The notes under the pieces: model-generated
Databases searched by the model: none
Told to the model about the DNA's origin: nothing
The model's input: only the letters and a program-made list of their open reading frames with translations
Translations under genes and position numbers: made by a program
Shown here: positions 1 through 55,871 of the stretch, piece by piece
Numbering within the stretch: position 1 is the stretch's first letter
How the letters are laid out: each line of letters begins with the position of its first letter
From: Streptomyces sp. NBC_01465
GTDB taxonomy: Bacteria > Actinomycetota > Actinomycetes > Streptomycetales > Streptomycetaceae
Length of the DNA: 64,000 bases
Direction: 5' to 3'
Assembly: GCF_036227325.1 (NCBI RefSeq)
Contig: NZ_CP109467.1
Span: forward strand, 8,866,001 to 8,930,000

Positions 1-1307
1 AGACAGTCGGTCAGGTCGATATCGGTCAGTACCAGGTGCGCAGCGTCCACCCCCTGCAACGAAGCCACTCGCACCCCGGCGATGCCTGTCAGCAGGCTCT
101 CATTCACTAGCGCGTCGCCCTCGGCCGCGAAGGGCACGGGGTAAGCAGTGATTGCTACGGGGAAGGACAGCGCCGCGTGGCTGAGGTCCGCTGTGGCGTA
201 GCGCAGACGCACGATCGCCGTCGACTGCCAGCGTGTCCGGGCACAGCGCACCTCACGCGCCGCGATTTCCAGCGTCACCGACACCTCGAATATCGCGCCA
301 GACAGATCAACCCTCTGCCCACACACGACCGGCCCGAACCACGACATCACCGCGAACTGCGTCCCGAAGAACTGGGCGTCGCCGGAGAACTGTGTCCCGC
401 CGAACCAGGCGTCGCCGGAGAACCGTGTCCCGTCGAACCGGGCAGGGCCGGAGAACTGAGCTTCGCCGAATCGGGCAGGGCCGGAGAACTGAGCCTCGCC
501 GAACGAAGCGTCGTCGGAGAACTGCGCCTGGCTGAACCCGGCGTCGTCGGAGAACTGCGCCCGGTCGAACTGGGCAGGGCCGGAGAACTGAGCCCGGCTG
601 AACTGGGCGTAGCGGGAGAACCGAGCCCCGCCAAACCGGGCGTCACCCGAGAACTGCACATCGTCGAACCAACCGTTGCCCGAGAACTGCGCCCCGACGA
701 ACCGGGCGTCGTCGGAGAACTGCGCCCGGCTGAACTCGGCGTCGTCGGTGAAGTGCGCCCCGCCGAACTGGGCGTAGTGAGAGAACCGAGCCTCGCCAAA
801 CTGGGCAGGTCCGGAGAACTGAGCTCCGCCGAACCGGGCAGGTCCGGAGAACTGAGCCCGGCTGAACCCGGCGTCGGAGAACTGCGCCCCGTCGAACTGA
901 GCATCGCGGGAGAACTGCGCCCGGTTGAACTGGGCAGGGCCGGAGAACTGCGCCCCGCCGAACCGGGCGTCGCCGGAGAACTGCGCCCGATTGAACTGGG
1001 CAGGGCCGGAGAACTGCGCCTCGCCGAACCGGGCGCGGCCGAGGCGGGGTTGCCGAGTAGTGGGATCACGCAGGGCGCGAAGGAGAGAAGCGAGGAGCGA
1101 CCCGGTGAAAGGGGTGCCGCGATAGTCGATGGCGGTACCGGGCGTCAGGTTGGCCAAGTGGGCATTGCGGTCCCTATCGGGCAGGTGGGCCAGGCATGCA
1201 CTGTGGTTAGAGACGTGGATGCCGCGGCAGCCGACGGGATCGCTGGCGGGGTCCGCACCATGTCCACAGTGCTGCCAAGAAGGTGCTGAGGCTGGTTCGC
1301 TACTCAT
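1..1307 (-). CDS. pentapeptide-repeat protein, C-terminus beyond window edge
   Basis: The frame is open from ATG at 1307 to the left edge (435 codons). The first ~85 residues hold Cys, His and Trp (WQHCGHGA) and a GTAIDYRGTPF stretch; I recognise this head from Streptomyces pentapeptide proteins. Residues ~86-320 are about 45 uninterrupted five-residue units of the form A-x-F-x-x (AQFSG, ARFGG), which should fold as a right-handed quadrilateral beta-helix. A non-repeat tail follows (VDLSGAIFEV, then LEIAAREV). The central residue is Phe rather than the more common Leu. The biochemical role is unknown and no enzymatic motif is visible. Longer-looking frames over this stretch are shadows created by the DNA repeat. 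Confidence 0.88.
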   Translation of the reverse strand, partial: MSSEPASAPSWQHCGHGADPASDPVGCRGIHVSNHSACLAHLPDRDRNAHLANLTPGTAIDYRGTPFTGSLLASLLRALRDPTTRQPRLGRARFGEAQFSGPAQFNRAQFSGDARFGGAQFSGPAQFNRAQFSRDAQFDGAQFSDAGFSRAQFSGPARFGGAQFSGPAQFGEARFSHYAQFGGAHFTDDAEFSRAQFSDDARFVGAQFSGNGWFDDVQFSGDARFGGARFSRYAQFSRAQFSGPAQFDRAQFSDDAGFSQAQFSDDASFGEAQFSGPARFGEAQFSGPARFDGTRFSGDAWFGGTQFSGDAQFFGTQFAVMSWFGPVVCGQRVDLSGAIFEVSVTLEIAAREVRCARTRWQSTAIVRLRYATADLSHAALSFPVAITAYPVPFAAEGDALVNESLLTGIAGVRVASLQGVDAAHLVLTDIDLTDC

Positions 1308-1725
1308 GGCCTGAGGCTCCGGTGCTGGTCGAGAGGAGAACAGAGGACGCGCTCTCACCTATGGAGTACTGCAGCAGACGGACGGTAGGAAGCCCGCGGT
1401 TCCAGAACCGGTTGCTCGCCTCGCGCCTCACCGATCGAGCGACTTCGCCTGTCACTCAAAGTTTGATGGCGCATGCTGAACATTCGCTGTCACAGGACAG
1501 CCACGTTCGTTTCTTGCCTCAACTGGCGGCTGCAGTCCGGGCGGCAGGGCTTCCCCGCGGTCGCTGCCTTGGCCGCAACGGACTGCGGCTTGGCCATCAA
1601 GACGGCCCCGCCGCCAGCGGTGGCGAACGGAGCCGTACAGGTTCCGGGGGATCTTGATGAGGCAACCATCGGCCCGAAGGAGGCGATGGCAGGTCTCCGC
1701 ACTATCGAGCCGGTGCAGGGCTGGC
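1308..1725. other. no convincing gene
   Basis: About 420 bp without a supported gene. A short minus-strand frame (about 1490-1700) contains a TAGKPCRPDCSRQ-like stretch. A related TAGKPYCSDCSRQ stretch occurs on the minus strand near 2585-2625, so both may be debris of one small Cys-containing family. Confidence 0.4.
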
Positions 1726-1944
1726 TCAGCGGCGGATTCGGATCCTTACGTGAACGGATCCACCGAGCGCGGCTGCAGCAGTGCCGATTGCGATGACCGG
1801 GCCGAGATAGTCAGCGTTGCCGGTCAGTGCGAGCACGATGACGGCAGCGAGCGTGCCGAGCACGGACAGAGCGCGTATCCAGATGAGCGCTGAACTGCCG
1901 GCGTTGGAGGTTGCAGGTGCGGTGCTTCGACCAAGCGGGGGCAT
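1726..1944 (-). CDS. small two-helix membrane protein
   Basis: A 72-residue protein with two hydrophobic segments (about residues 24-42, ALSVLGTLAAVIVLAL, and 46-63, LGPVIAIGTAAAALGG) and a basic C-terminus (RIRIRR), so probably an integral membrane protein. The family is not recognised. It is isolated between gene-poor stretches. Base use is typical of the window and the start ATG at 1944 is the only one in frame. It could be a remnant of a longer gene. Confidence 0.45.
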   Translation of the reverse strand: MPPLGRSTAPATSNAGSSALIWIRALSVLGTLAAVIVLALTGNADYLGPVIAIGTAAAALGGSVHVRIRIRR

Positions 1945-2122
1945 GGACTCGTTCTCCTCCGTTGTGGGTTGAGCAGGGGTGTCCAGGCTGGGAATGCCTG
2001 TTGATCTCAGTGCGCTCGAAGACGTCTCGCGCTACGTCTAGGGGGAGCTCCTTGTCGAGTGCGGCAATAGCGCCCTTCGCACTGCTCCGCGTGAAGTTGC
2101 CGTGGCCCTGACGGCCGTAATC

Positions 2123-2285
2123 GGACCCGCAGATACGGACACAAGTGGCCCCACTGCGGCGCCCTGAACTACGACGACTTGAAGTGGCCCAACGACCTGA
2201 CCAGTCGGGTCAAGGCGCACTGCGGGGCCACTTCAGCCCGCCTCGAACACTCAGCGGAGCCACCGATGTCCGTATCCGCGGGTCC
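2123..2285. repeat. 163-bp interrupted palindrome
   Basis: The outer arms 2123-2140 and 2268-2285 are inverted copies with 17 of 18 matches. Inner arms at about 2143-2160 and 2216-2233 (aagtggccccactgcgg against gcactgcggggccactt) are a second, imperfect pair. No gene is supported across it. The layout fits a miniature inverted-repeat element or a large cruciform/RNA hairpin. The rest of 1945-2671 holds nothing I can support. Confidence 0.6.
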
Positions 2286-2671
2286 AGTTGGCGCTGTCGC
2301 AGCCAAGGTTTCCGTCGCCGAGTTTGAACAGGTTGGGGCAGGACAGGCTCGAAACTCTGCGGCGGGCAGGCGGAGGGACTCCGCGAGGGCACATCATCAT
2401 CATGTAAATCGACTCCTTTGAGTGGTTGAGGTGCCGCGGTAGAGCCGTGTGCCGTGAACCGCCCTGGTCAGCAAGGCGCCCGCTGGCGAAGTGGCCGTCG
2501 GCGGGCCGCCACTCGTGATAGCGATTTAGGCCTCGGAGCCCAAGCACAGAGGGCTGCAAGGGAGGAGCGGGAAGAGGCACGACTGGCGGCTGCAGTCCGA
2601 GCAGTAGGGCTTCCCAGCGGTGTTGGCGCGCATGGGCACAGCTCTGACCTGCATCGACTGTCAGATGCGAT

Positions 2672-3637
2672 GTGTACTCTCACGCGGTGATCATTGACCG
2701 GAACGCGAGCGTGACACCGACTCGCTTCGAAAGCCCGTGGCTGCGCCGCACCGTTGGTAAACGGATAGGCCGCGCCGACCGCGACGCCATGCTTCGGGCG
2801 CTCCTTTGGGTGAGCGAGGTTCGCATGGCGGGCGCCGTCGCCTCCGCCTGGCGTGAGTTTCTCCAGGACATCAAGCGGGAGCTGAGCGAGGCCGAACAGC
2901 GGCGGGACAGGTACTGGCAGCGCAGTGATCAGGTTGCTGCTGGATGCCAGGAAGCCGCCGCGAAGCTGGCTGACGATCTGTGGCGTGAGCGAACGGCTGC
3001 CGAGGAGGTGCTGCAGCAGTGCGAGGTGATTGTGCGTGAGTTCACCGCACGACTGGGGCGGCACGAGCTTGACGATGAACGGTGCTTGCTCCTGGACTCG
3101 CGTGCCGCGCTGGGCGTCCTGAGTGACCATCTGGGGCCCGCGAAGCAACGGCTTGCGGAGCTGCTTGCGGACAACCGGGGATCCCTTCATCAACTCGCGA
3201 TGTTGGAACTGCGCCAGCGGCACAGGACAACCAAGTCTCTGGCGACACTCGAGCAACTTGACGCCATGGACCAGCACGAATTCGATGAGATCGTGTTCCG
3301 GGGCCTCTCACGAGGCGGCTTTCAGCCGCTCCTCCTTGAACCGCGCATTCTCACCTTCGTGGGCGCTGGCGCGAGGGGCCTCGTCTATTGCGCCAACGTG
3401 CAACGACCGCGCCACGATGCGGTGACGGACGCTCGCGCCATTCTGTCCGCGCAACGGGAGGCGAGGAGCAGAGACATCGGCCACGTGTTGATCGTCACCA
3501 ACCTGATGTTCATCTCCAGCATCGGCAACCAGATCTTCGACGCATCGGACCTTTCCATGACGCTGCTGCAGCGTCCGGATCTTCAGCGATGGATCGACTG
3601 GGGCATGCCGCTGCGCGATGTGGTGGCGGACGCCTGA
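2672..3637 (+). CDS. Mrr-like fold protein, catalytically degenerate, with coiled-coil N-terminus
   Basis: 321 residues. Residues ~55-125 are highly charged and helical, probably coiled coil. The last ~120 residues, beginning MDQHEFDEIVFRGLSRGGF, align by eye with the nuclease domain of the next gene (MTPNEFEQAVAALARRDGH) and share its downstream ITN/VTN and RW-WG landmarks. The Asp and Q-x-K residues of the PD-(D/E)xK site are absent here (the region reads FVGAGARGLVYCANVQRP). Its stop overlaps the next start by one base (TGATG), which implies translational coupling. It is probably a structural or regulatory partner of the active paralogue. ATG 2672 or GTG 2687 could be the start. Confidence 0.7.
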   Translation: MYSHAVIIDRNASVTPTRFESPWLRRTVGKRIGRADRDAMLRALLWVSEVRMAGAVASAWREFLQDIKRELSEAEQRRDRYWQRSDQVAAGCQEAAAKLADDLWRERTAAEEVLQQCEVIVREFTARLGRHELDDERCLLLDSRAALGVLSDHLGPAKQRLAELLADNRGSLHQLAMLELRQRHRTTKSLATLEQLDAMDQHEFDEIVFRGLSRGGFQPLLLEPRILTFVGAGARGLVYCANVQRPRHDAVTDARAILSAQREARSRDIGHVLIVTNLMFISSIGNQIFDASDLSMTLLQRPDLQRWIDWGMPLRDVVADA

Positions 3638-5064: not shown

Positions 5065-8000
5065 TCAGTGATGGGTGGCGGTGCGCGGCAGCAGATCCTG
5101 CAGGAGTTCGGCGGTGTCGTCTTCCACGGTCACACCGCCGTCGATGCCGTCGTTGATGGTGCGCAGGCGATGGGCGGCATCCCTCAACGCGGCGATGTCC
5201 CCGGCCTGGTGGTGGGCGCGGAAGATCGCCCGGTGGAGGATTTCGTTGCTGTCGTCGGCGAGCAGCCCGCGGTGGGCCGCCCACAGGGCGCCGCTGGTGT
5301 CGCCGGCCTCGCGCCGTCGGGTGGACAGGTGGTGGGCGGTGTCCACGATCGCGGCGAGCATCTCCTCGATGTCGGTCGTGGCCCAGGTGTAGCGGGTGGT
5401 GTCGGTCGCGGAGAGCGGGCGCCCCCGTACGAGGGAGAGCGCACGGCGCAGCGCGAGATCACCGTCTTCGCCACGGTCCGCTTTCCCTTGGAGAGCAAGG
5501 TTCTTGAACTTCTCCCAGTCGCTGGTGACATTCGGGCCGAGGCGGTAGCGGCGGTCGGGGTTGTCCTGGATCCGGGGGAAGTTGGCGCGCCCGAGCCATG
5601 AGCGGGTGCGGCTGATGACGGGATCGCGGCGCTGCTTGCCGCCGACCTGGCCGGGCCAGAGCGCTTCATCGATCTCGTGGTGGTCGGCGCCGGGGTGCAG
5701 CGCGAGGAAGGTGACCAGCTCCAAGTTGATGCGTTTACGGCTGGGGTCGACACGTCCCTGTTCCCCGTCGATGCGCAGCGGTCCGAGCAGCGACAGGACC
5801 GGCCCCGGCCCCTCCACCATGACCGATTCCAACACGGGGCTTTCTGCGCCCGCCGAGGCCTCGGTCACGGCCTGCGCGGTTGGCGCGGGGGCGGTGACAC
5901 TGACCGCCTGCAGCAGGGGAGCGGCATACGCACTGGTCAGGGGGAGCACATCACCGGGAGCCGCGGGCGCCGCCGCGGCCGAGGCCTCGGGGTCGTCGTT
6001 GAGGACTTCGGCGAGCGAGAGCCCGGTCGCGGGCTCCTTCTTCGCCTCCTCCGGCGCGCCCGTTGCATCTTCCGCCGCCTCCTCCACGTCCCGGTCTTCT
6101 GGTTCTTCCGGGTCGTCTGTGCCCAGGAGGTCCTGCTCGAGTTCGGCGTACTCGGTGGGCAGGGCGCCCTCCTCCTCGTTCGCGTACGGGTTCTCCCAGA
6201 CCTGGGGCGCGGGCTGGGCCTCGGTCCACGCGGGGGCGGGCACGTCGGTGTCGCTCGCGGCGAGGGTGAGCAGCTCGATCGCGTCAGCGAAGTGGCTGTC
6301 GCTCAACCCTTGCAGATGCACCGGCAGTCCGGATCCGGGAAGCACGACCAGCTGATCTGCGCCCTGGCAGTCGAGCGTCCAGGCGCGGCTCGCGGACAGG
6401 TCCTGGGTGGGGGCGGCGGTCACCACCGCGCCGGCGGTGCGCGGCAGCGAGGAGAGCGCATCGAACAGTGCGGTGACCGCAGTGGGGTCGGCGACAGCGG
6501 TGTCCAGGTCCTGGGCGAGGACGACGTGCGGGGTGAACGCGCCCCCGGTGTCGTCCTGCAACCGGGCGGCTCGCAGGGAGTTGGCGCCGATGGTGGTCAG
6601 GGCGTGGCGTTGCTCGGCGGTATGGGCGGCGAGTTCGGTGACGGCCTGGCCCATGTCCTGGGTGCGGGCGACGCGTTCGGGAGCCGCTGCTTCCAGGCCG
6701 GGTGCGGTGGTTCCGAAGGCGGTGAGCTCAAGATGGTCCGACAGCGGGGTGTTGGCGAGTTCAACGGAGATGGCCTGCAGAACGTGCCGGGCCAGGTCCA
6801 CGTCGCCGGCGAGGTGGAGGATCCCGACGTGCTCGAGGTCGATGAGGACCAGATGTCCCTGGGGGTCCCAGCCGAGCGAGACCAGGGCCGGGTAGGGGGC
6901 GCCGGTGGTGGTGAGGGCCTCGGCATCTGCGAGGTCGGGGCTGGTGGCGGTGCAGGTCCACAGATCCTGGCGGCCGTTGGTGGCGGTGAAGGGCTTGCAC
7001 GGGGTCGTGTCGGCGGCCAGGTGGAGCTCGATGCGCGCATCGTGGAGAACGACCGCTTCGATGACGGGTAGTTCACGTCGGACGCTCGCGAGGTTGAGGG
7101 CGAGCGTACGCAGCGCGGTGTCCAGAAGATCGAGGGGTTGTTGGACCGCGCGCAGCGACTGCTCGGTGGCGGCCGCGCTCCCGGTGGGCATGGGGATGCG
7201 CCGGCCGACCCGGCGGCGGCGCTGCTGCAGCCTGCGCCGGGTGGCCAGCGTGCCGACCAGGGCGGCCGCCAGCACCCCGGCCCCAAGCCACAGGGTGGCC
7301 GGGGCCACGGACTGCTCGCCGTCCTCCTCGGCCGCCCGGGCTACCGGCACCGGGGTGCGGTGCGCGCTTTGATCTGGGGTGGAGGAGGCTGCTGGAGCGG
7401 GGGCCGGGGAGGTTGCCGACGGCCCGGCCGTACGGCTCGGGGCCGGACCGGGAGTGGTAGTGGCCCTCGCGGAGGGCGAGGACGGGGGAGCCGTGTTCTG
7501 GCGGCTGCCCGAATCTGGAGCCGACGGCGCGGTCGGGGTGGCCTTGTCCTGGTCCGGCGTCTGGGTTTTGGGAGGGTGCGTTGGGCTGTGACCGGTGCGT
7601 GGTGCGGGCGCTGTGGTGTGCCCGTCCTGCGGAGGGATGACGAGATGTTGGCCCGGGAAGATCAGATCAGGATTCCCGCCGATCACACCCTTGTTGGCGT
7701 TGTAGATCTTCGGCCACTTGTTGGCGTCGCCGTACGCGTCCTCCGCGAGGCCCCAGAGCGTGTTGCCGCTACGGACCGTCTCCTCCGTGGTGTGAGCGGA
7801 GTCGTTGCCGCTCTCCACAGAGGACAGCTCCTCCTTCTCCTTGTGGTCCTTGCCCGCGTCCTGCACGGGGGTGGCCGACTGGTGGGCAGAGGCCGGGGCC
7901 GTCCTCGTGGCGGCTGCGGCAGTTGTCGTACGGGGGGCCGGGGGAGAGGTGGTGATCTGGGGGCGGGCGTCGGCGGGCAGCTTGATGACCGTTCCGAGCG

Positions 8001-46525: not shown

Positions 46526-46981
46526 GCTGTTAGGTCGGCGTCATGATGGTCGAGGTCTTCGACGGGATCGGCTGTGGGTGGATCAGCCACCAGGACCCCG
46601 ACCTCGCCACCGGCACACTGCCCACGGTGGACGATGCGGCGTCGTGGCCGATCTCCCACCCGAGGTGCCGCAGGGCGTTCGGGCCTCGCCCTGATGCTGT
46701 TTCTCCGGGACGAGCGCCTGGCTTGTAGGTTCCCGTTTCCGATGTCCTCCGACGCGTCGGTGACCAGCAGTGACACCGCTTGTCTCACGCGGTGTCCCCG
46801 CCAGTTCGTCTCACGCCCTGTCCTTATTCCGCACTAATGGGCGGCAAGGATGACCTGACCCGCGCCGACTCCGTTGGCTACACCTTCGACCCGCCGTCGA
46901 CAACCCAGTGGCGCCCCGGCCGTCCCACAGCTCGGTGGTTGGTAGGGGGCGGTAGGGGGCGGCCCTGGCTGCGCCGACCAT
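46526..46981. other. no convincing gene
   Basis: About 455 bp of unclear sequence upstream of the insertion sequence. A plus-strand frame (MMVEVFDGIGCGWISHQDPD) may be a relic; the family is not recognised. Confidence 0.35.
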
Positions 46982-47856
46982 TGAGCATTTTCAGCGTTGC
47001 CTCTCCAGGGTGAGGACGGCCTTGGCGACTGACGTCATGCGGTTCGGGCTGATTCGGGATCTTCGGAAGATCCGCCAGGACTTCAGCAGTGCCATGCCCC
47101 GTTCGACGGGCGCTCGGGCCGTGGCCAACGCCCGGTTGGCCGTCTGCTGTGTAGGGGACAGCTGCCCGCCGGGCGGCCGTCTGCGCCCGGTGGTGACCCA
47201 GGGGCCGGCGCCCTGGTAGGCGCGGTCGGCCAGGACAGGGACACCTTGGCGTTCGCAGATCCGGATGATCCGGTGGGTGCGGGCCGCGGTCAGGTCGTGG
47301 CACCGGCCTGGCAAGGCCGGCGAGATCCACAGCATCTGCCCGGTCGGGTCGGTCACGACCTGCACGTTCACCCCATGGCGGCGGTGCTTGTGCGAGTAGT
47401 CGGCCTTTCCGTCGCCCACGCGGTCGCACTCGGCGAGCGTCCCGTCGAGCAGTACGTACTCCGGTTCGTGCCTCCGCAGGACTTTGAGCAGTCCCGGTGC
47501 CCGGGCGGCCAGGAGGTCGATCACCGCAGTGGCGTAGGCGTGGGCGGTGCCGACCGAGATGCCGAAGCCGGCCGCGATCTGGGCCAGGGTGTCGTGCTTG
47601 CGCAGGTACACCAGAGCGACGAGCGCGCGTTGGTGCGGCGGGAGCTTGCAGCGGCGGTCACCCTCGCGGGTGACGATGAGCATCGTGACCCACTCGACCA
47701 GCGCATGAGGCAGGTCAAGTGCGGCAGGATAGGAGACCAACGAGGCACCTGCGCTGATGAGTTGAGACGTCGAACACCTCCCTCAACGGCACGGGTGCCT
47801 CGTGCGTTGCGCCCTCGCCGCCGTCACCCCATCGGTGGCCACTCTGAAAATGCTCA
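46982..47856 (-). mobile_element. IS5-family insertion sequence, copy 1, 875 bp
   Basis: Terminal inverted repeats TGAGCATTTTCAG (left) and its complement (right). All four ends in the window are bordered by ATT, so the exact boundary and any target duplication cannot be decided. Nearly identical to copy 2 at 54997-55871, same orientation. Confidence 0.88.
46991..47740 (-). CDS. IS5-family transposase
   Basis: 249 residues. N-terminal helix-turn-helix ([20 protein letters not shown]), then a DDE core: [27 protein letters not shown] and [16 protein letters not shown] supply the Asp, Asp and Glu. Differs from copy 2 by one visible residue (ALVALVYL against ALVGLVYL). Intact. Confidence 0.92.
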
Positions 47857-47892
47857 TTGCTCAGTACCGGGTCTGACCTGCTGTTATGGCTG

Positions 47893-47934
47893 TCGGGGTG
47901 GCGGGATTTGAACCCACGACCTCTTCGTCCCGAA
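47893..47934 (-). tRNA. 3' part of a tRNA-Pro(CGG): attachment-site scar
   Basis: On the minus strand the sequence runs from the anticodon loop (ttcgggacgaagag) through a T-arm (gtgggttcaaatcccgc) to the acceptor strand caccccga. The 5' half is absent: bases before the anticodon loop do not pair with the stem. Homology starting exactly at the anticodon loop is the signature of tyrosine-integrase att sites in tRNA genes. Confidence 0.7.
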
Positions 47935-48285: not shown

Positions 48286-48710
48286 CGGCTCAGCCGATCA
48301 GGACATGCCGATTGGGTCAAGGCCGGCAGCGGGCCATCAGCTTGGGAAGCTGGGGGCATTTGGGTGCGGATCCGTTGCTGACCTGGGCGAACGGCTGGGC
48401 TGGAGCCTCGTTGGGTCCGCAGGCTTTCACCGTGATTCCCCGCTGTTCCCCGTTCTATCTGGTGCGCTTGTGGTGCAGCCGGTGTCCAGGCGGCAAGACG
48501 TCAGATGTCACGTTCGCGTTGCGCGTTGGCAGTGGGCGTGGCTAGGTCTCAGCTCTGTAGAGCAGCTGCATCTCCGACTCTGCCTGGGGGCCCGGGTACG
48601 ACCAGGGATTTAACCAACGGTTGGGCTTCGGCGATAGCTAAGAACTCCAAAAGAAAATCTACGCGCACACCCCCGGGCGAACTTCTTTGCATTTCGCAGG
48701 TGCCAGAGTT
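48286..48710. other. no convincing gene
   Basis: About 425 bp with no supported gene. The end (48640-48710) becomes visibly AT-richer, like the regulator gene that follows. Confidence 0.4.
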
Positions 48711-49844
48711 TCAGAATGGGATTTCTTTTTCCAGTTCCAGCAGGCGATGAGCCTCGGACTTCATTCCGGCGCCGTTGAGTATGCGAGAAAAATCCGCATG
48801 CTTTCCTGTAGGTACCGCTGTCAGTAGATATTCCAACGCCCTGTGCGATTCGAGTCCCTGGATTTTCTCCTTTTTCAGGCAGTCGATCAACTTCAAGAGT
48901 CGATGCGGTCCACCCTGTGATCCTGCATGCAGGATGAGCTCTCGATCCCCCATAAAGGCTTCAGGGATAGCGCCGGCAGTCGCCAATGTTATTCTTGGCC
49001 ATGCGTGCAGCCCGATATTCTCTGCGAGTTTATCGGCGTCATCCTTCAAGGTAGCCGCGCGCAGCGCTCGCAGGACGTCGGCTAGATCTGACCTGGTTCC
49101 CCCTAGCCAGTCGCCTTTGCCGAGAATGGCGTCAACAAAATTATGCGCATACCAGAAGGTCAGCTCTCCTTCAGCCCGTCGAAGTGCCACCAGGAGCTTG
49201 GGTATCTCCGAGGGGTGCTGAGCCAGCAGGCAGGTCTGGAAGTATCGATTGCCGATATTTTCGGGACCGTCATCAGCTATCGATTCGAGGATCTTCACTA
49301 TCTGGCCAGGGGGTGCATGGGCTGCAATGTTGAGGAAACCTTGGTAATCCATATGTGCGTAGCCGAGTGCGACAACGACAGCTGGCAGCCAGGTTTCAAG
49401 GGGTTGGCCTACCCCCTGTCTTACGAGATTTAAAATATCGTCCATTCCAGCGTTGATGAGGGGCGGGATCAGTGCCTCTAGATCAGATGGGTCGCCGGGC
49501 TTTTGATCCTGAGATGCCTTATGGTCAGTCTCGCGTGGCGGTTCAACGACATTCCGCTTTTTGGGCTCATTGGGGCGCGATGCCTTTTCTTGCCAAATTT
49601 GCTCATCGGTATCTTCAGGCGGAAGCGGAGCACCGATCGAATGTGCGTACTCGGCGCAAGCTCGAACCAGAGCTAGCACCTGGACTAATTTCAGACCACT
49701 AGTTCCGGAGAGCTTATCCTGGATGGAGGCCCGACTCATCCTTCTGCCTTGGCGATCGGTGAGCTTTTCTAGTTCTCGCAGCGAGGGGTTGCCAGCCCGG
49801 ACACGCAAGCGAGCCAGCTGTTTCGCCAGAGAGTCATCAGCCAT
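48711..49844 (-). CDS. XRE-type DNA-binding protein with long helical C-terminus
   Basis: 377 residues from ATG 49844. N-terminal helix-turn-helix (LAKQLARLRVRAGNPSLREL, RMSRASIQDKLSGTS, ~5-60), a charged linker, then ~230 residues of helical repeats (LETWLPAVVVALGYAHMDYQ; FQTCLLAQHPSEIPKLLVAL; DKLAENIGLHAWPRI). Such proteins occur as orphan regulators in Streptomyces. It is AT-richer than the window average. Upstream of and divergent from the reverse-transcriptase operon; a regulatory link is possible but not shown. Confidence 0.75.
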   Translation of the reverse strand: MADDSLAKQLARLRVRAGNPSLRELEKLTDRQGRRMSRASIQDKLSGTSGLKLVQVLALVRACAEYAHSIGAPLPPEDTDEQIWQEKASRPNEPKKRNVVEPPRETDHKASQDQKPGDPSDLEALIPPLINAGMDDILNLVRQGVGQPLETWLPAVVVALGYAHMDYQGFLNIAAHAPPGQIVKILESIADDGPENIGNRYFQTCLLAQHPSEIPKLLVALRRAEGELTFWYAHNFVDAILGKGDWLGGTRSDLADVLRALRAATLKDDADKLAENIGLHAWPRITLATAGAIPEAFMGDRELILHAGSQGGPHRLLKLIDCLKKEKIQGLESHRALEYLLTAVPTGKHADFSRILNGAGMKSEAHRLLELEKEIPF

Positions 49845-50062
49845 CGTCCCGCCCCGTCTCATGGTCCATTGCTGCCGCCTGTCCAGAGTCGTCCAGCATC
49901 GGCCACAACTGTCCAGCTCAGTTCCGTTCAGACTAGGGCGTGATGAGCCGACTGTCCGGAGTTCAGCAGGAACGTCCGAGGTACTGGTGGACAGCTGCGA
50001 CGCACAGCTTCCCTTGGAGCGTGTCCCCAACAACGGGCGCGTTGTCAGACAGTGAGAGGAGC

Positions 50063-50308
50063 ATGGAATCAGTGGATGTGACCATCACGCTCTGGGTTCT
50101 GGCCGGCTCGGGCGTGGCGAGCGTGGCATTGTTCGCTGCCAAAGGCTTGCTTGATCAACTACCGGGAGTCTTCGACTCTTGGCGTGCTGCGCGACGCGCG
50201 TGGCGAGGAGACCCGCCACCAGCACTGGAGCTTCACTCCTGCCAAGGTGCCTGCACGCTGGATCACGCAGACGCTCGCCCTGTCCCGCCACGACCAGACG
50301 CCTGCTGA
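50063..50308 (+). CDS. small membrane protein, possibly frame-disrupted
   Basis: 81 residues from ATG 50063 behind GAGAGGAG. One hydrophobic segment (ITLWVLAGSGVASVALFAAK, ~8-27) then DQLPGVFDSWRAARRAWRGD. After that the sequence loses character (Cys/Pro-rich), suggesting a frameshift near 50215. Confidence 0.5.
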   Translation: MESVDVTITLWVLAGSGVASVALFAAKGLLDQLPGVFDSWRAARRAWRGDPPPALELHSCQGACTLDHADARPVPPRPDAC

Positions 50309-50848: not shown

Positions 50849-52345
50849 ATGAGCTCCCAGATTGATACATTTTCAGTCGCTAAGGATCTAAGTTCTGTAC
50901 AGCTAGATCGTCTACCTAATCTCATAATTGATGAATGTCTTCAGGATTGCGCAAAAGAGATATCTGCCACCGCAGATATGATTCTCTTGGGAGACTTTCA
51001 CTTGCCTTATGAAACACTCGCAATGCCGAAGAAGAAATTTGAGCCACGCCCTGTGACAGTGGCCAGCACCCCTGCGCGAGTGGCGTACGCGGCCTTGGTT
51101 AATAGCGTTAGCGATTCCTTGGGACCCAAGAGTAGGGAAGATGGGAATCTGGCGATACATAAGTCCTTTACGGTTAGGAATGAGAGTAATTATTTTGTGG
51201 ATTTCGACATTGCCTCATTCTATGAGTACATAGATCATGGCATCCTGGCCCAGCAACTTTTGACGCGCACTCTGAACTCAGAGGTCGTGGAAAAGTTCAT
51301 GCGTATTTTGAAATCCTTGACGAAAGGCGCTAGGGGCCTGCCGCAGCTTTTGTCGGCAAGCGATCACCTTTCAGATTCATACATTAGCGCACTTGAGCGC
51401 CGCCTTGTTCGTAACGGGTACTCAGTCGTCCGATATGCCGACGACTTCACCGTGGCGTGTCCCGACTGGGAGGCAGCGAATGTAATTATTGAAAGGGCCG
51501 CCGAGTACGCGCGAGATTTGGGTCTAGTTCTATCTAGCGAAAAAACCAACATCAGAAAACGCGCCACAATTATCGCTACTGAAGAATCGGAAGCGCGATT
51601 CATAAACAGGTACTCTGAAACGGCCGAGAATAAACTAGTGACACGCATATTCACTACTGGGCGCTATGGCGAATTCATAGAGGAGCTAGAAACCTTCAGT
51701 GAAAAGGAAGCCGCCGAAGGGACCATGTGGTCACTAGTCCGTGATTGGTATGAGGTTATGGAAAGGGCTGCACCGGAGGACTCGTTCCGTGTTGAGGGGC
51801 ATTTTCGAACTTTCCTCGGAGTTGCGGTCGACCGACTCCGTGGGCATGACGAGCGCATACCTGACTCAATACTCGAAGAGATTGTTTTCAAGCATCCTCT
51901 ATTTTTGGATTCAGTCTGCGAATACGTAGCAACTCGGGCGCATACGCATGAATCCCGCGAGGACCCATGGGAGAGCATGCGGATACTCTCCAACATGGGG
52001 AGGCAAAGTCCTTGGGCTAAAATCTGGATGCTCGACACAATTGCGCGCACGCACACTCGGAAAATGGATTCCTGTAATTACTCGCCCGTAATGAATTGGG
52101 TTGATGCTCAAGTAGAGGATCGCCACGAGGTTGTCCGTGCCCAGGCCGCCTGGGCAGCCAGTTGTCACGGTCGTCTATCCGAAAGTGCTCTAACGGGCGC
52201 CTACACTCACGCATCACCGTTGAGTCAGCATGCATTGGCGGCCTGTATGGGGAAGCAAGGGGGAATGGGGAATGGGATCGTCCAGGCTATTAGGCAAGAC
52301 GGCCCGTTGAATAGGAAGGCATTCGAATGGGCTCAGGGCGTGTAA
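50849..52345 (+). CDS. reverse transcriptase of the antiphage/unknown-group type
   Basis: 498 residues from ATG 50849 (GAGAAGGG upstream). RT motifs in order: motif A FVDFDIASFYEYIDH (Asp120), motif B-like GLPQLLSASDHLSDSYIS (163-180), and the catalytic motif C VVRYADDFTVA with YADD at 196-199, then LGLVLSSEKTNI (motif D/E). No intron maturase domain and no msr-msd sequence upstream. The C-terminal ~220 residues are a helical extension, as in Abi and DRT enzymes. Codons are AT-rich compared with neighbours, a sign of transfer. It overlaps the HEPN gene by 19 bp. Confidence 0.88.
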   Translation: MSSQIDTFSVAKDLSSVQLDRLPNLIIDECLQDCAKEISATADMILLGDFHLPYETLAMPKKKFEPRPVTVASTPARVAYAALVNSVSDSLGPKSREDGNLAIHKSFTVRNESNYFVDFDIASFYEYIDHGILAQQLLTRTLNSEVVEKFMRILKSLTKGARGLPQLLSASDHLSDSYISALERRLVRNGYSVVRYADDFTVACPDWEAANVIIERAAEYARDLGLVLSSEKTNIRKRATIIATEESEARFINRYSETAENKLVTRIFTTGRYGEFIEELETFSEKEAAEGTMWSLVRDWYEVMERAAPEDSFRVEGHFRTFLGVAVDRLRGHDERIPDSILEEIVFKHPLFLDSVCEYVATRAHTHESREDPWESMRILSNMGRQSPWAKIWMLDTIARTHTRKMDSCNYSPVMNWVDAQVEDRHEVVRAQAAWAASCHGRLSESALTGAYTHASPLSQHALAACMGKQGGMGNGIVQAIRQDGPLNRKAFEWAQGV

Positions 52346-52899
52346 GTTTCGATAGCCTAACAAGCTCTGGTGAGTCGTGCCTACATGACTTGGCGCGCTT
52401 GTCCACTCTGTCGGAACAGACTGCAGTGAGTCCCGAGTGGATAGTAGTAGACGCTGTGGCGGCCGTCGAGGTTCATGTTGACCGCTCCCTTGAATCCTTG
52501 ATCAACGATTCAGGGGTATCTGGCCTCCCCATTGGTGCTACCTTCCTTTCTCGCTACGGCGAGGATATGAGCAGAAGTTGGGATGCTCGATACGAATGGC
52601 TCTCTGACGGTTTCGGAGTAAAGGTAAAAGGCGCCAAGTTTCAGCAAGACTTCCACGCGGTCATTGAGTGCAGGAACGCGATCGTCCACGGGTCTGGAAA
52701 TCTAACCAAGAGGCAGCGGAGCAGCTTCGGCAAGTTCATACAATTGAGAAAGCAGATGGAATCCGTTCTAAACGTCAGGGTGCATGGGACGGAGGTATCA
52801 TTTTCGGTTGACTCGGCCCGAAATGCCCTGCGGGTGGCATCCGCGTTCGTCCAATGTTTCGACTCGGCAGTACATGGCGTAACCAACCTCGACTACTAA
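52327..52899 (+). CDS. HEPN-motif protein, probable RNase partner of the reverse transcriptase
   Basis: 190 residues, ATG 52327 inside the last codons of the reverse-transcriptase gene, so co-translated. The all-helical sequence carries the HEPN signature R-N-x3-H in VIECRNAIVHGSG (Arg116, Asn117, His121), preceded by the usual long helix (DAVAAVEVHVDRSLESLI). HEPN proteins of this kind are typically RNases that act as toxic effectors. AbiA fuses RT and HEPN in one chain; here they are separate. AT-rich like its partner. Confidence 0.75.
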   Translation: MGSGRVSFDSLTSSGESCLHDLARLSTLSEQTAVSPEWIVVDAVAAVEVHVDRSLESLINDSGVSGLPIGATFLSRYGEDMSRSWDARYEWLSDGFGVKVKGAKFQQDFHAVIECRNAIVHGSGNLTKRQRSSFGKFIQLRKQMESVLNVRVHGTEVSFSVDSARNALRVASAFVQCFDSAVHGVTNLDY

Positions 52900-52914: not shown

Positions 52915-53166
52915 TCATGGATGAGCCTTCTTGAGGCGCCTCCAGCAGATGAGGCTGCAGGCCAATGAGATGAAGGTGTCGTGGAGTTCGGGGCGTCGTT
53001 CCCAGCGCACGGCCAGGCGTTTGAACTGGTGGAGGAGTGCGAAGGTCTGCTCGACGACGTAGCGGAGCTTGCCCAGGCCCTTGATGTTCGGGCTGCCCTT
53101 GCGGGAGATCACCGGCATGATCCGGCGGCGCTGCAGTTCATGCCGCACGGCCTTCGAGTCGTACGC
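52915..53166 (-). pseudogene. C-terminal half of an IS5-type transposase
   Basis: Reads AYDSKAVRHELQRRRIMPVI, KLRYVVEQTFALLHQFKRLA, RRPELHDTFISLACSLICWR to a natural stop. It joins exactly to the N-terminal half at 54762-54996 (GDK followed by AYDSK) once the intervening IS110 element is removed. Confidence 0.85.
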
Positions 53167-54761: not shown

Positions 54762-54996
54762 CTTGTCGCCGAGTACGGCCTTGGGGCGTCGGCGTGGATG
54801 GCCGGGGCGTCCGGCCACCGGCGGGATGCCGTCGATGAGGGCGAGGGTCTGGGTGATGTCGTTGACGTTGGCCGCGGTGGTGATCACCTTGAGCGGGGTG
54901 CCCTTGCCGTCGCAGATCAGATGGTGCTTGCTGCCCGTCTTCCGCCGGTCGACCGGCGACGGACCGGTCGCGGAACCCCCTTTTTCGCGCGGACAT
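54762..54996 (-). pseudogene. N-terminal-side part of the split IS5-type transposase
   Basis: Reads VRAKKGGSATGPSPVDRRKT, GSKHHLICDGKGTPLKVITT, ANVNDITQTLALIDGIPPVA, RPKAVLGDK. Cut at 54996/54997 by IS5 copy 2, so its first ~100 residues are missing; they are not found to the right of that copy either. Confidence 0.85.
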
Positions 54997-55871
54997 TGAG
55001 CATTTTCAGCGTTGCCTCTCCAGGGTGAGGACGGCCTTGGCGACTGACGTCATGCGGTTCGGGCTGATTCGGGATCTTCGGAAGATCCGCCAGGACTTCA
55101 GCAGTGCCATGCCCCGTTCGACGGGCGCTCGGGCCGTGGCCAACGCCCGGTTGGCCGTCTGCTGTGTAGGGGACAGCTGCCCGCCGGGCGGCCGTCTGCG
55201 CCCGGTGGTGACCCAGGGGCCGGCGCCCTGGTAGGCGCGGTCGGCCAGGACAGGGACACCTTGGCGTTCGCAGATCCGGATGATCCGGTGGGTGCGGGCC
55301 GCGGTCAGGTCGTGGCACCGGCCTGGCAAGGCCGGCGAGATCCACAGCATCTGCCCGGTCGGGTCGGTCACGACCTGCACGTTCACCCCATGGCGGCGGT
55401 GCTTGTGCGAGTAGTCGGCCTTTCCGTCGCCCACGCGGTCGCACTCGGCGAGCGTCCCGTCGAGCAGTACGTACTCCGGTTCGTGCCTCCGCAGGACTTT
55501 GAGCAGTCCCGGTGCCCGGGCGGCCAGGAGGTCGATCACCGCAGTGGCGTAGGCGTGGGCGGTGCCGACCGAGATGCCGAAGCCGGCCGCGATCTGGGCC
55601 AGGGTGTCGTGCTTGCGCAGGTACACCAGGCCGACGAGCGCGCGTTGGTGCGGCGGGAGCTTGCAGCGGCGGTCACCCTCGCGGGTGACGATGAGCATCG
55701 TGACCCACTCGACCAGCGCATGAGGCAGGTCAAGTGCGGCAGGATAGGAGACCAACGAGGCACCTGCGCTGATGAGTTGAGACGTCGAACACCTCCCTCA
55801 ACGGCACGGGTGCCTCGTGCGTTGCGCCCACCCCGCCGTCACCCCATCGGTGGCCACTCTGAAAATGCTCA
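54997..55871 (-). mobile_element. IS5-family insertion sequence, copy 2, 875 bp
   Basis: Same ends, length and orientation as copy 1 at 46982-47856, with only a handful of visible base differences. Inserted in the older IS5-type transposase. Confidence 0.88.
55006..55755 (-). CDS. IS5-family transposase (copy 2)
   Basis: 249 residues, intact, with the same HTH and DDE residues as copy 1 ([38 protein letters not shown]). One Ala-to-Gly change near residue 47. Because both copies are intact, either can mobilise the other or the DNA between them. Confidence 0.92.

Follow-up and report, generated by a model that had tools for sequence, protein, structure and literature searches.

A UG22-type reverse transcriptase and a HEPN protein encoded by overlapping genes of a Streptomyces: a candidate antiphage operon

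Two overlapping genes of Streptomyces sp. NBC_01465, encoding a reverse transcriptase (RT) and a HEPN protein, form what is almost certainly a UG22-HEPN operon of the DRT group. Both the RT and the HEPN protein are named by PADLOC models, and the operon is thus a new representative of a category already listed there; by model scores it is not a split AbiA. A function in defence is likely, to judge from the class, and the explanation that seems to us the best for the whole, which we hold at about even chances, is that DNA made by the UG22 RT in the manner of Class 1 enzymes would control a HEPN RNase and so bring about abortive infection.

The two genes and their products

The window, that is, the whole stretch of DNA analysed, comprises 64,000 nucleotides (positions 8,866,001-8,930,000) within the single 9.14-Mb contig of this strain. 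The operon has the following features, in window coordinates.

50849..52345, plus strand: UG22-type RT gene, 498 aa, ATG start, ORF open and intact
51206..51223, plus strand: RT motif A, D120-I-A-S-F-Y125, with the first catalytic Asp (D120) and a candidate dNTP-selecting Tyr (Y125)
51434..51445, plus strand: YADD box, residues 196-199, with two catalytic Asp (D198 and D199, identical in 15/15 aligned RTs)
51665..51667, plus strand: Tyr273, in the linker from RT palm to helical tail, candidate protein-priming residue
51716..52342, plus strand: helical C-terminal domain of the RT (approximate limits), with alphaRep/HEAT-like repeats towards the end
52313..52319, plus strand: AGGAAGG, RBS-like sequence, putatively serving the HEPN gene
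52327..52345, plus strand: overlap of the RT and HEPN genes, 19 bp
52327..52899, plus strand: HEPN protein gene, 190 aa, ATG start, ORF open and intact
52672..52689, plus strand: catalytic-type HEPN motif, R116-N117-A-I-V-H121 (R-N-x3-H)

A preliminary description of this DNA had recognised an RT gene overlapping by 19 bp the gene of a protein with a HEPN motif, and this layout is borne out by the two intact ORFs. The AGGAAGG sequence lies within the RT gene, seven bases 5′ of the HEPN ATG. A scan for promoters and terminators returned nothing above the level of shuffled sequence.

Both products were named with the models of PADLOC-DB 2023; the RT_UG22/RTasHEPN classification reportedly originates with Mestre et al. 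2022. The window RT matches Pfam RVT_1 (E 9.1e-15) and, over residues 4-495, the PADLOC model RT_UG22 (PDLC03760; E 1.5e-144), the runner-up model being UG21 at E 8.3e-29. The enzyme, for which the preliminary description had found no named DRT type, can thus be called UG22. That description had also seen a YADD RT devoid of intron and retron features, and had named, as an outcome that would refute its reading, a place of the protein among group II intron or retron RTs. Model scores uphold the former and speak against the latter: the NCBIfam models of RTs from group II introns, retrons and Drt2-Drt5 all score far under their cut-offs, with 68 bits for the group II intron model TIGR04416 (cut-off 300), 28.5 bits for the St85 retron model (cut-off 235) and 24.1 for the TIR retron model (cut-off 600). 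A split AbiA was likewise considered and rejected, the RT scoring as UG22 and AbiA lying outside its best 25 of 71 PADLOC matches. Among RT relatives, the AbiA model appears in four, at E 2e-6 to 6e-9; for the L010 RT, PADLOC gives 1.2e-7 with AbiA versus 3.9e-149 with UG22. The residues D120, D198, D199 and Y125, the last of which is a candidate steric gate in motif A, are identical in all 11 RTs that are paired with a HEPN protein (see below), and polymerase chemistry therefore appears to be selected, the catalytic Asp triad being invariant throughout this set.

The presence of the R-N-x3-H motif in the second ORF was confirmed, and HEPN models match the protein, PADLOC RTasHEPN (PDLC03820) doing so over residues 35-183 at E 4.8e-41. 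With Pfam, the window protein stays under the curated cut-off (HEPN_Apea, E 0.029), and the 11 paired HEPN proteins, searched at E up to 1, match RiboL-PSP in six cases (best 4.6e-6) and Apea HEPN in three (best 0.0021). A HEPN profile found no meaningful match in the PDB (best E 0.5). The paired proteins are 17-59% identical to the window HEPN, and R116, N117, H121, G122, G124, T127 and Q130 are the same in 11/11. Since catalytic-type residues, beyond the mere fold, are fixed, we favour the reading that the HEPN protein would act as the effector of the operon. The predicted structures of the RT and the HEPN protein, obtained from two-sequence alignments, have mean pLDDT values of 38.0 and 41.8, too low to reveal an interface between the two.

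Relatives and genomic setting

UG22 RTs are rare and scattered among the sampled genomes. Such an RT was found in 4/392 genomes of a genus sample (protein query, E 1e-20), and the UG22 model at E 1e-40 identified 4/396 genomes in a phylum sample, 3/249 in a sample of a single family and 6/394 in a class sample, one of these six being UG32; the samples overlap. Two further UG22 RTs are encoded on Rhodococcus plasmids. The window RT protein matches 84 plasmid records, of which the best two are UG22 pairs, while the other 38 matches listed of the 84 are mostly named group II intron RTs. A tblastn search of plasmids with the window HEPN gave nothing at E 0.01, so that the two divergent plasmid HEPNs were missed by that search. 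Viral contigs yielded no relative of the window RT or of the window HEPN, and phage records yielded two partial matches to the RT, at 25% identity.

In all, 14 distinct RTs, the window enzyme and 13 more, have UG22 as their best PADLOC model. Three entries (L002, L003 and L010) represent one locus of Streptomyces sp. man185 and contribute a single RT to this total, and L035 (genome G1136), initially a UG22 match, proved to be UG32 and was dropped from the 14. A HEPN gene directly follows the RT gene in 11 of the 14 (the window, L010-L013, L026, L027, L032, L033, L036 and L037), a recurrence that takes the pairing beyond chance. The HEPN partner was recognised by PADLOC RTasHEPN in nine of these pairs, while those of L010 and L011 were identified by their similarity to the window HEPN (51-59% identity). 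In 11/11 pairs the RT gene runs 4-34 nt into the HEPN gene, assuming for L037 a GTG start at 5341, which is not that of the annotation, and for L033 a start at ATG 2142, which is internal to a longer ORF. The idea that the operon is a split, co-translated variant of AbiA, put forward in the preliminary description, finds no support; by model score the RT is UG22, and its HEPN partner is a separate gene in every pair.

That description had also regarded homologues lacking the HEPN partner as grounds for refutation, an outcome that did not occur, 11 of 14 having one. The survey of homologues suggested there found the partner absent in three cases (L014, L015 and L034), no HEPN being detected by profile within the fetched 13-14 kb; for two of the three, the whole genomes (G723 and G468) contain no RTasHEPN match at E 1e-5. 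It follows that a UG22-scored RT can do without HEPN at these loci, a point against the explanation favoured below. The three RTs, encoded at 5483-7237 (L014), 5493-7361 (L015) and 6218-7888 (L034), have HGDD or VGDD where the others have YxDD or FxDD, and are distant from the HEPN-paired enzymes; when the 14 RTs and the UG32 enzyme of L035 are placed in one tree, the 11 paired RTs lie on one side of a branch with support 98/94. The three unpaired RTs possibly represent a separate UG with other partners. A 171-aa ORF lies upstream of the L015 RT gene and overlaps it, and a small membrane-like ORF lies upstream of that of L014. Conversely, weak RTasHEPN matches (E 2e-6 to 2.5e-9) occur at L021 (5932-6630), L022 (5659-6378) and L023 (5611-6321), where the UG22 RT profile detected no RT in the fetched stretch; related HEPNs may therefore also stand alone, and these loci were excluded from the pair counts.

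The distance matrices of RT and HEPN correlate across the 11 pairs with r 0.971, a value reached in 0/20,000 permutations. This points to co-inheritance and not to contact, since any jointly inherited genes would give such a correlation. The RT proteins of the window, L010 and L011 are 61-62% identical. In comparisons of both genes among these three loci, codon positions 1, 2 and 3 are 59-72%, 72-81% and 33-41% identical, and the low identity at third as compared with second positions points to selection at the protein level; dS was saturated in five of six comparisons, so that no formal dN/dS is given.

The surroundings of the operon contain the following features.

46979..47850, minus strand: left IS copy, DDE transposase (edges approximate)
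47892..47934, minus strand: 3′ part of tRNA-Pro, exact 43-nt copy, resembling an attachment scar
48683..50284, no strand assigned: HTH-like gene and small membrane ORF, a block also found in two relatives without the RT
54994..55866, minus strand: right IS copy, near-identical to the left and in the same orientation (edges approximate)

The RT and HEPN genes together have a GC content of 0.52, versus 0.67 for the window. They are indeed AT-richer than their surroundings, as had been noticed, but the AT-richer stretch is wider than the genes and extends over about 48-53 kb. The bracketing by IS copies and the nearby tRNA attachment scar, both already pointed out, are corroborated by two near-identical copies in the same orientation, whose transposase is DDE_Tnp_4 by a Pfam scan of the right copy, and by the 43-nt copy of tRNA-Pro. 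Elsewhere on the contig, an intact tRNA-Pro(cgg) lies at 3.812 Mb, with a second partial copy at 3.832 Mb. Exact copies of the 43 nt number three in all, two of which lie 20 kb apart within contig positions 3,812,140-3,832,124; this interval has the appearance of an element that inserted at tRNA-Pro, and the copy in the window resembles a stray attachment site.

To the left of the operon, at 48711-50284, an HTH-like gene (EAD2 match below threshold, E 0.16) is divergent from a small membrane-like ORF. Genomes G054 and G059 match window positions 48683-50284 and 48695-50237 at 91% and 88% and have no UG22 match; similarity stops on both sides, hence neither offers a clean empty site. Because the block occurs in these genomes without UG22, it is probably not part of the UG22-HEPN system, and the left junction of the operon probably falls between 50285 and 50848. 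The HTH-like gene and the membrane-like ORF may even form a separate mobile unit, since their surroundings in G054 and G059 are different. On the other side, a short minus-strand ORF (52915-53148), located 15 bp past the HEPN stop, resembles by eye the end of a transposase, and an insertion may accordingly have removed the original 3′ flank.

At the other UG22 loci, seven of ten neighbouring proteins scanned match PADLOC models. They include a Lamassu-like LmuA/LmuC/LmuB set at L032, a C5 methyltransferase with Vsr at L026, an AAA protein at L033 and a Swt1-type HEPN protein at L012; a protease-NTPase (L011), a phage-type integrase (L033) and a membrane protein (L013) gave no PADLOC match. As the ten were chosen by eye and without a control, the matches are not counted as proof of defence islands.

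A possible mechanism and its rivals

Searched against the PDB, a profile built from 11 RTs finds designed alphaRep chains (best E 9.3e-16), the match lying at profile positions about 430-510 of 516. An alphaRep HEAT-like C-terminal repeat is described as a mark of Class 1 UG/Abi RTs (PMC12489045, PMC13174585), and the best reading of the tail match is that the window RT would be a Class 1 DRT. The Class 1 members studied are reported to synthesize DNA without a nucleic-acid template (PMC13174585), and AbiA to prime on Tyr298 or Tyr303, in the loop joining its RT and helical domains (PMC11077055). The UG22 linker is 59-89 residues long, and in 11/11 RTs it carries a Tyr at a distance of 33-38 residues from its beginning. 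The Tyr273 column is Tyr in 11/11 in one alignment (A9) and in just 8/11 in another (A4), and this invariance in only one of two alignments counts against the best explanation. Y359, in the helical domain and identical in 15/15 RTs, is a second candidate priming residue.

According to the best explanation, the RT would add untemplated DNA to itself, as other Class 1 DRTs do, probably at the linker residue Tyr273. The simplest resting complex would unite a HEPN dimer with the RT and the DNA that the RT carries, coupled translation setting the RT:HEPN ratio at a fixed value. Phage interference with the DNA or with the complex would then free or activate the HEPN protein, which would cut cellular RNA, and the infection would be aborted. 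That the HEPN is controlled by RT-made DNA seems to us no more and no less probable than its opposite. It is tempting to speculate further that the operon is an RNA-free, two-gene counterpart of a retron, in which a self-attached, untemplated tail at the linker Tyr would be both lock and sensor for HEPN, and the RNase would be released when phage proteins bound single-stranded DNA or cut it; this more specific form we regard as possible rather than probable.

With 1-kb flanks included, blastn aligns the window and L010 in a single block, 1000-3053 in both, the operon occupying 1001-3051; DNA similarity thus ends at the first and last codons, and no conserved flanking RNA is seen. Comparison of the flanks of the window, L010 and L011 gave a best E of 0.47, and Rfam, searched over 44-58 kb of the window, no match at E 1. 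The 600 nt upstream fold unremarkably in the window and in L010 (z -1.7 to 1.5, the lowest values being -1.7 and -1.6, respectively); in L011, one of 11 windows reaches z -3.0. For L036 and L037 the aligned block starts at 986 and extends to 3187 and 3214; further downstream the two have in common a 652-bp block (88% identity), located at different distances in annotated hypothetical genes of the other strand, which we take for shared plasmid sequence. L010 and L012 have in common a 96-bp stretch (81%) about 1 kb and 0.3 kb, respectively, upstream of the RT gene; it contains no tRNA and was found neither in the window nor at the other UG22 loci searched. Like the z -3.0 window of L011, this stretch weighs against the best explanation. 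The search relied on sequence similarity and single-sequence folding, and an RNA encoded elsewhere, or conserved in shape alone, could have escaped it.

Class 2 DRTs and retrons are reported to use an RNA (PMC12489045, PMC13174585), and an unrecognised ncRNA, near the operon or elsewhere, might template DNA here as well. A fast-diverging or distant RNA would escape blastn, and the z -3.0 window of L011 and the 96 bp of L010 and L012 could be traces of one; but the window, L010 and L011 have no DNA similarity beyond the two ORFs, the 44-58 kb region has no Rfam match, upstream folding is ordinary in the window and L010 and the 96 bp do not recur at the other loci searched, which makes this alternative very unlikely. 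Alternatively, the pair could be a plain toxin-antitoxin system, in which the RT protein would neutralise a HEPN toxin by binding it and DNA synthesis would be dispensable. HEPN toxins are common in pairs of a small toxin and a larger partner, and the operon, with its short HEPN protein, longer RT and gene overlap, would fit; nevertheless, the invariance of the catalytic Asp triad argues against a dispensable polymerase, and we regard this reading as decidedly unlikely. A role outside defence, as a stress or dormancy module or as mobile-element cargo with another function, would suit the IS copies and the attachment scar around this operon, near which no other defence gene was found in the part of the window genes scanned. 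Against it stand two intact genes under protein-level selection across homologues and the PADLOC-matching neighbours at homologous loci (seven of ten, by eye and without control), and such a role appears most improbable.

The remaining alternative is an AbiA-like logic distributed over two chains, the HEPN being a non-catalytic partner for dimerisation and polymerisation and the DNA product or the RT itself harming the phage. The AbiA HEPN is reported to be enzymatically inactive, none of four RNAs being cut by it, to bring about dimerisation and to be required for polymerisation and DNA synthesis (PMC11077055); a catalytic-looking HEPN therefore need not be a killer. Fixed pairing and gene overlap would suit a structural subunit equally well. 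On the other hand, a scaffold would not require R, N and H to be invariant in 11/11 HEPNs down to 17-20% identity, although even this conservation is inconclusive, since AbiA keeps R-x6-H (R-x4-H in UG22 HEPN) and yet is inactive. On balance we deem this logic unlikely, though less so than the other three alternatives. In this respect, UG22-HEPN has the advantage that RT and RNase-type HEPN are encoded by separate genes, so that each can be mutated alone, and whether DNA controls an effector is directly testable in a 2-kb cassette.

Comparison with known systems

The operon agrees with the PADLOC category RT_UG22 + RTasHEPN of the DRT group in its full-length RT match and its HEPN match, and shares gene order and overlap with the relatives of that category. 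A search of the open-access literature, outside which subscription papers mostly fall, found no experimental paper on UG22-HEPN or RTasHEPN.

AbiA resembles UG22-HEPN in combining an RT, a helical domain and a HEPN, and in having a Tyr in the linker between the first two; untemplated synthesis is likely in UG22-HEPN as well. However, the AbiA HEPN is part of the RT chain and has an R-x6-H motif, whereas UG22-HEPN consists of separate genes and its HEPN, with R-x4-H, is closer to other Pfam HEPN families; the RT clade is UG22. Because the RT is UG22, the HEPN is nearer to RiboL-PSP and Apea and that of AbiA is reported inactive, the partnership looks independent of AbiA.

DRT1, of Class 3, is comparable in its proposed logic, that of template-free, protein-attached DNA regulating an effector; it is a single RT-nitrilase protein, in contrast with the two genes, the HEPN and the alphaRep tail of UG22-HEPN. 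Its priming residue is reported to be Ser402, and its authors compare it with a minimal retron with antitoxin DNA (PMC13275509). The same report describes DNA adducts that drive dormant filaments, a precedent for the best explanation. It also has DNA synthesis activate the nitrilase, which is the opposite of a lock and counts against that explanation.

Type IX retrons, represented by retron-Kva2, comprise an RT, an ncRNA/msDNA, a winged-helix protein and a HEPN. The complex of RT and DNA in retron-Kva2 is reported to enclose a HEPN dimer, which stays silent until triggered and is then released to cut tRNA (PMC13405049), and the likeness lies in the proposed logic, whereby the product of the RT restrains a HEPN RNase. 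UG22-HEPN differs in having two genes and no conserved RNA that could be seen, and in its canonical HEPN motif, which type IX HEPNs are reported to lack (same report). If the lock-and-sensor form proved true, the untemplated DNA of Class 1 enzymes would gain a defined job, and immunity based on an RT and a HEPN would have arisen independently of both AbiA and type IX retrons.
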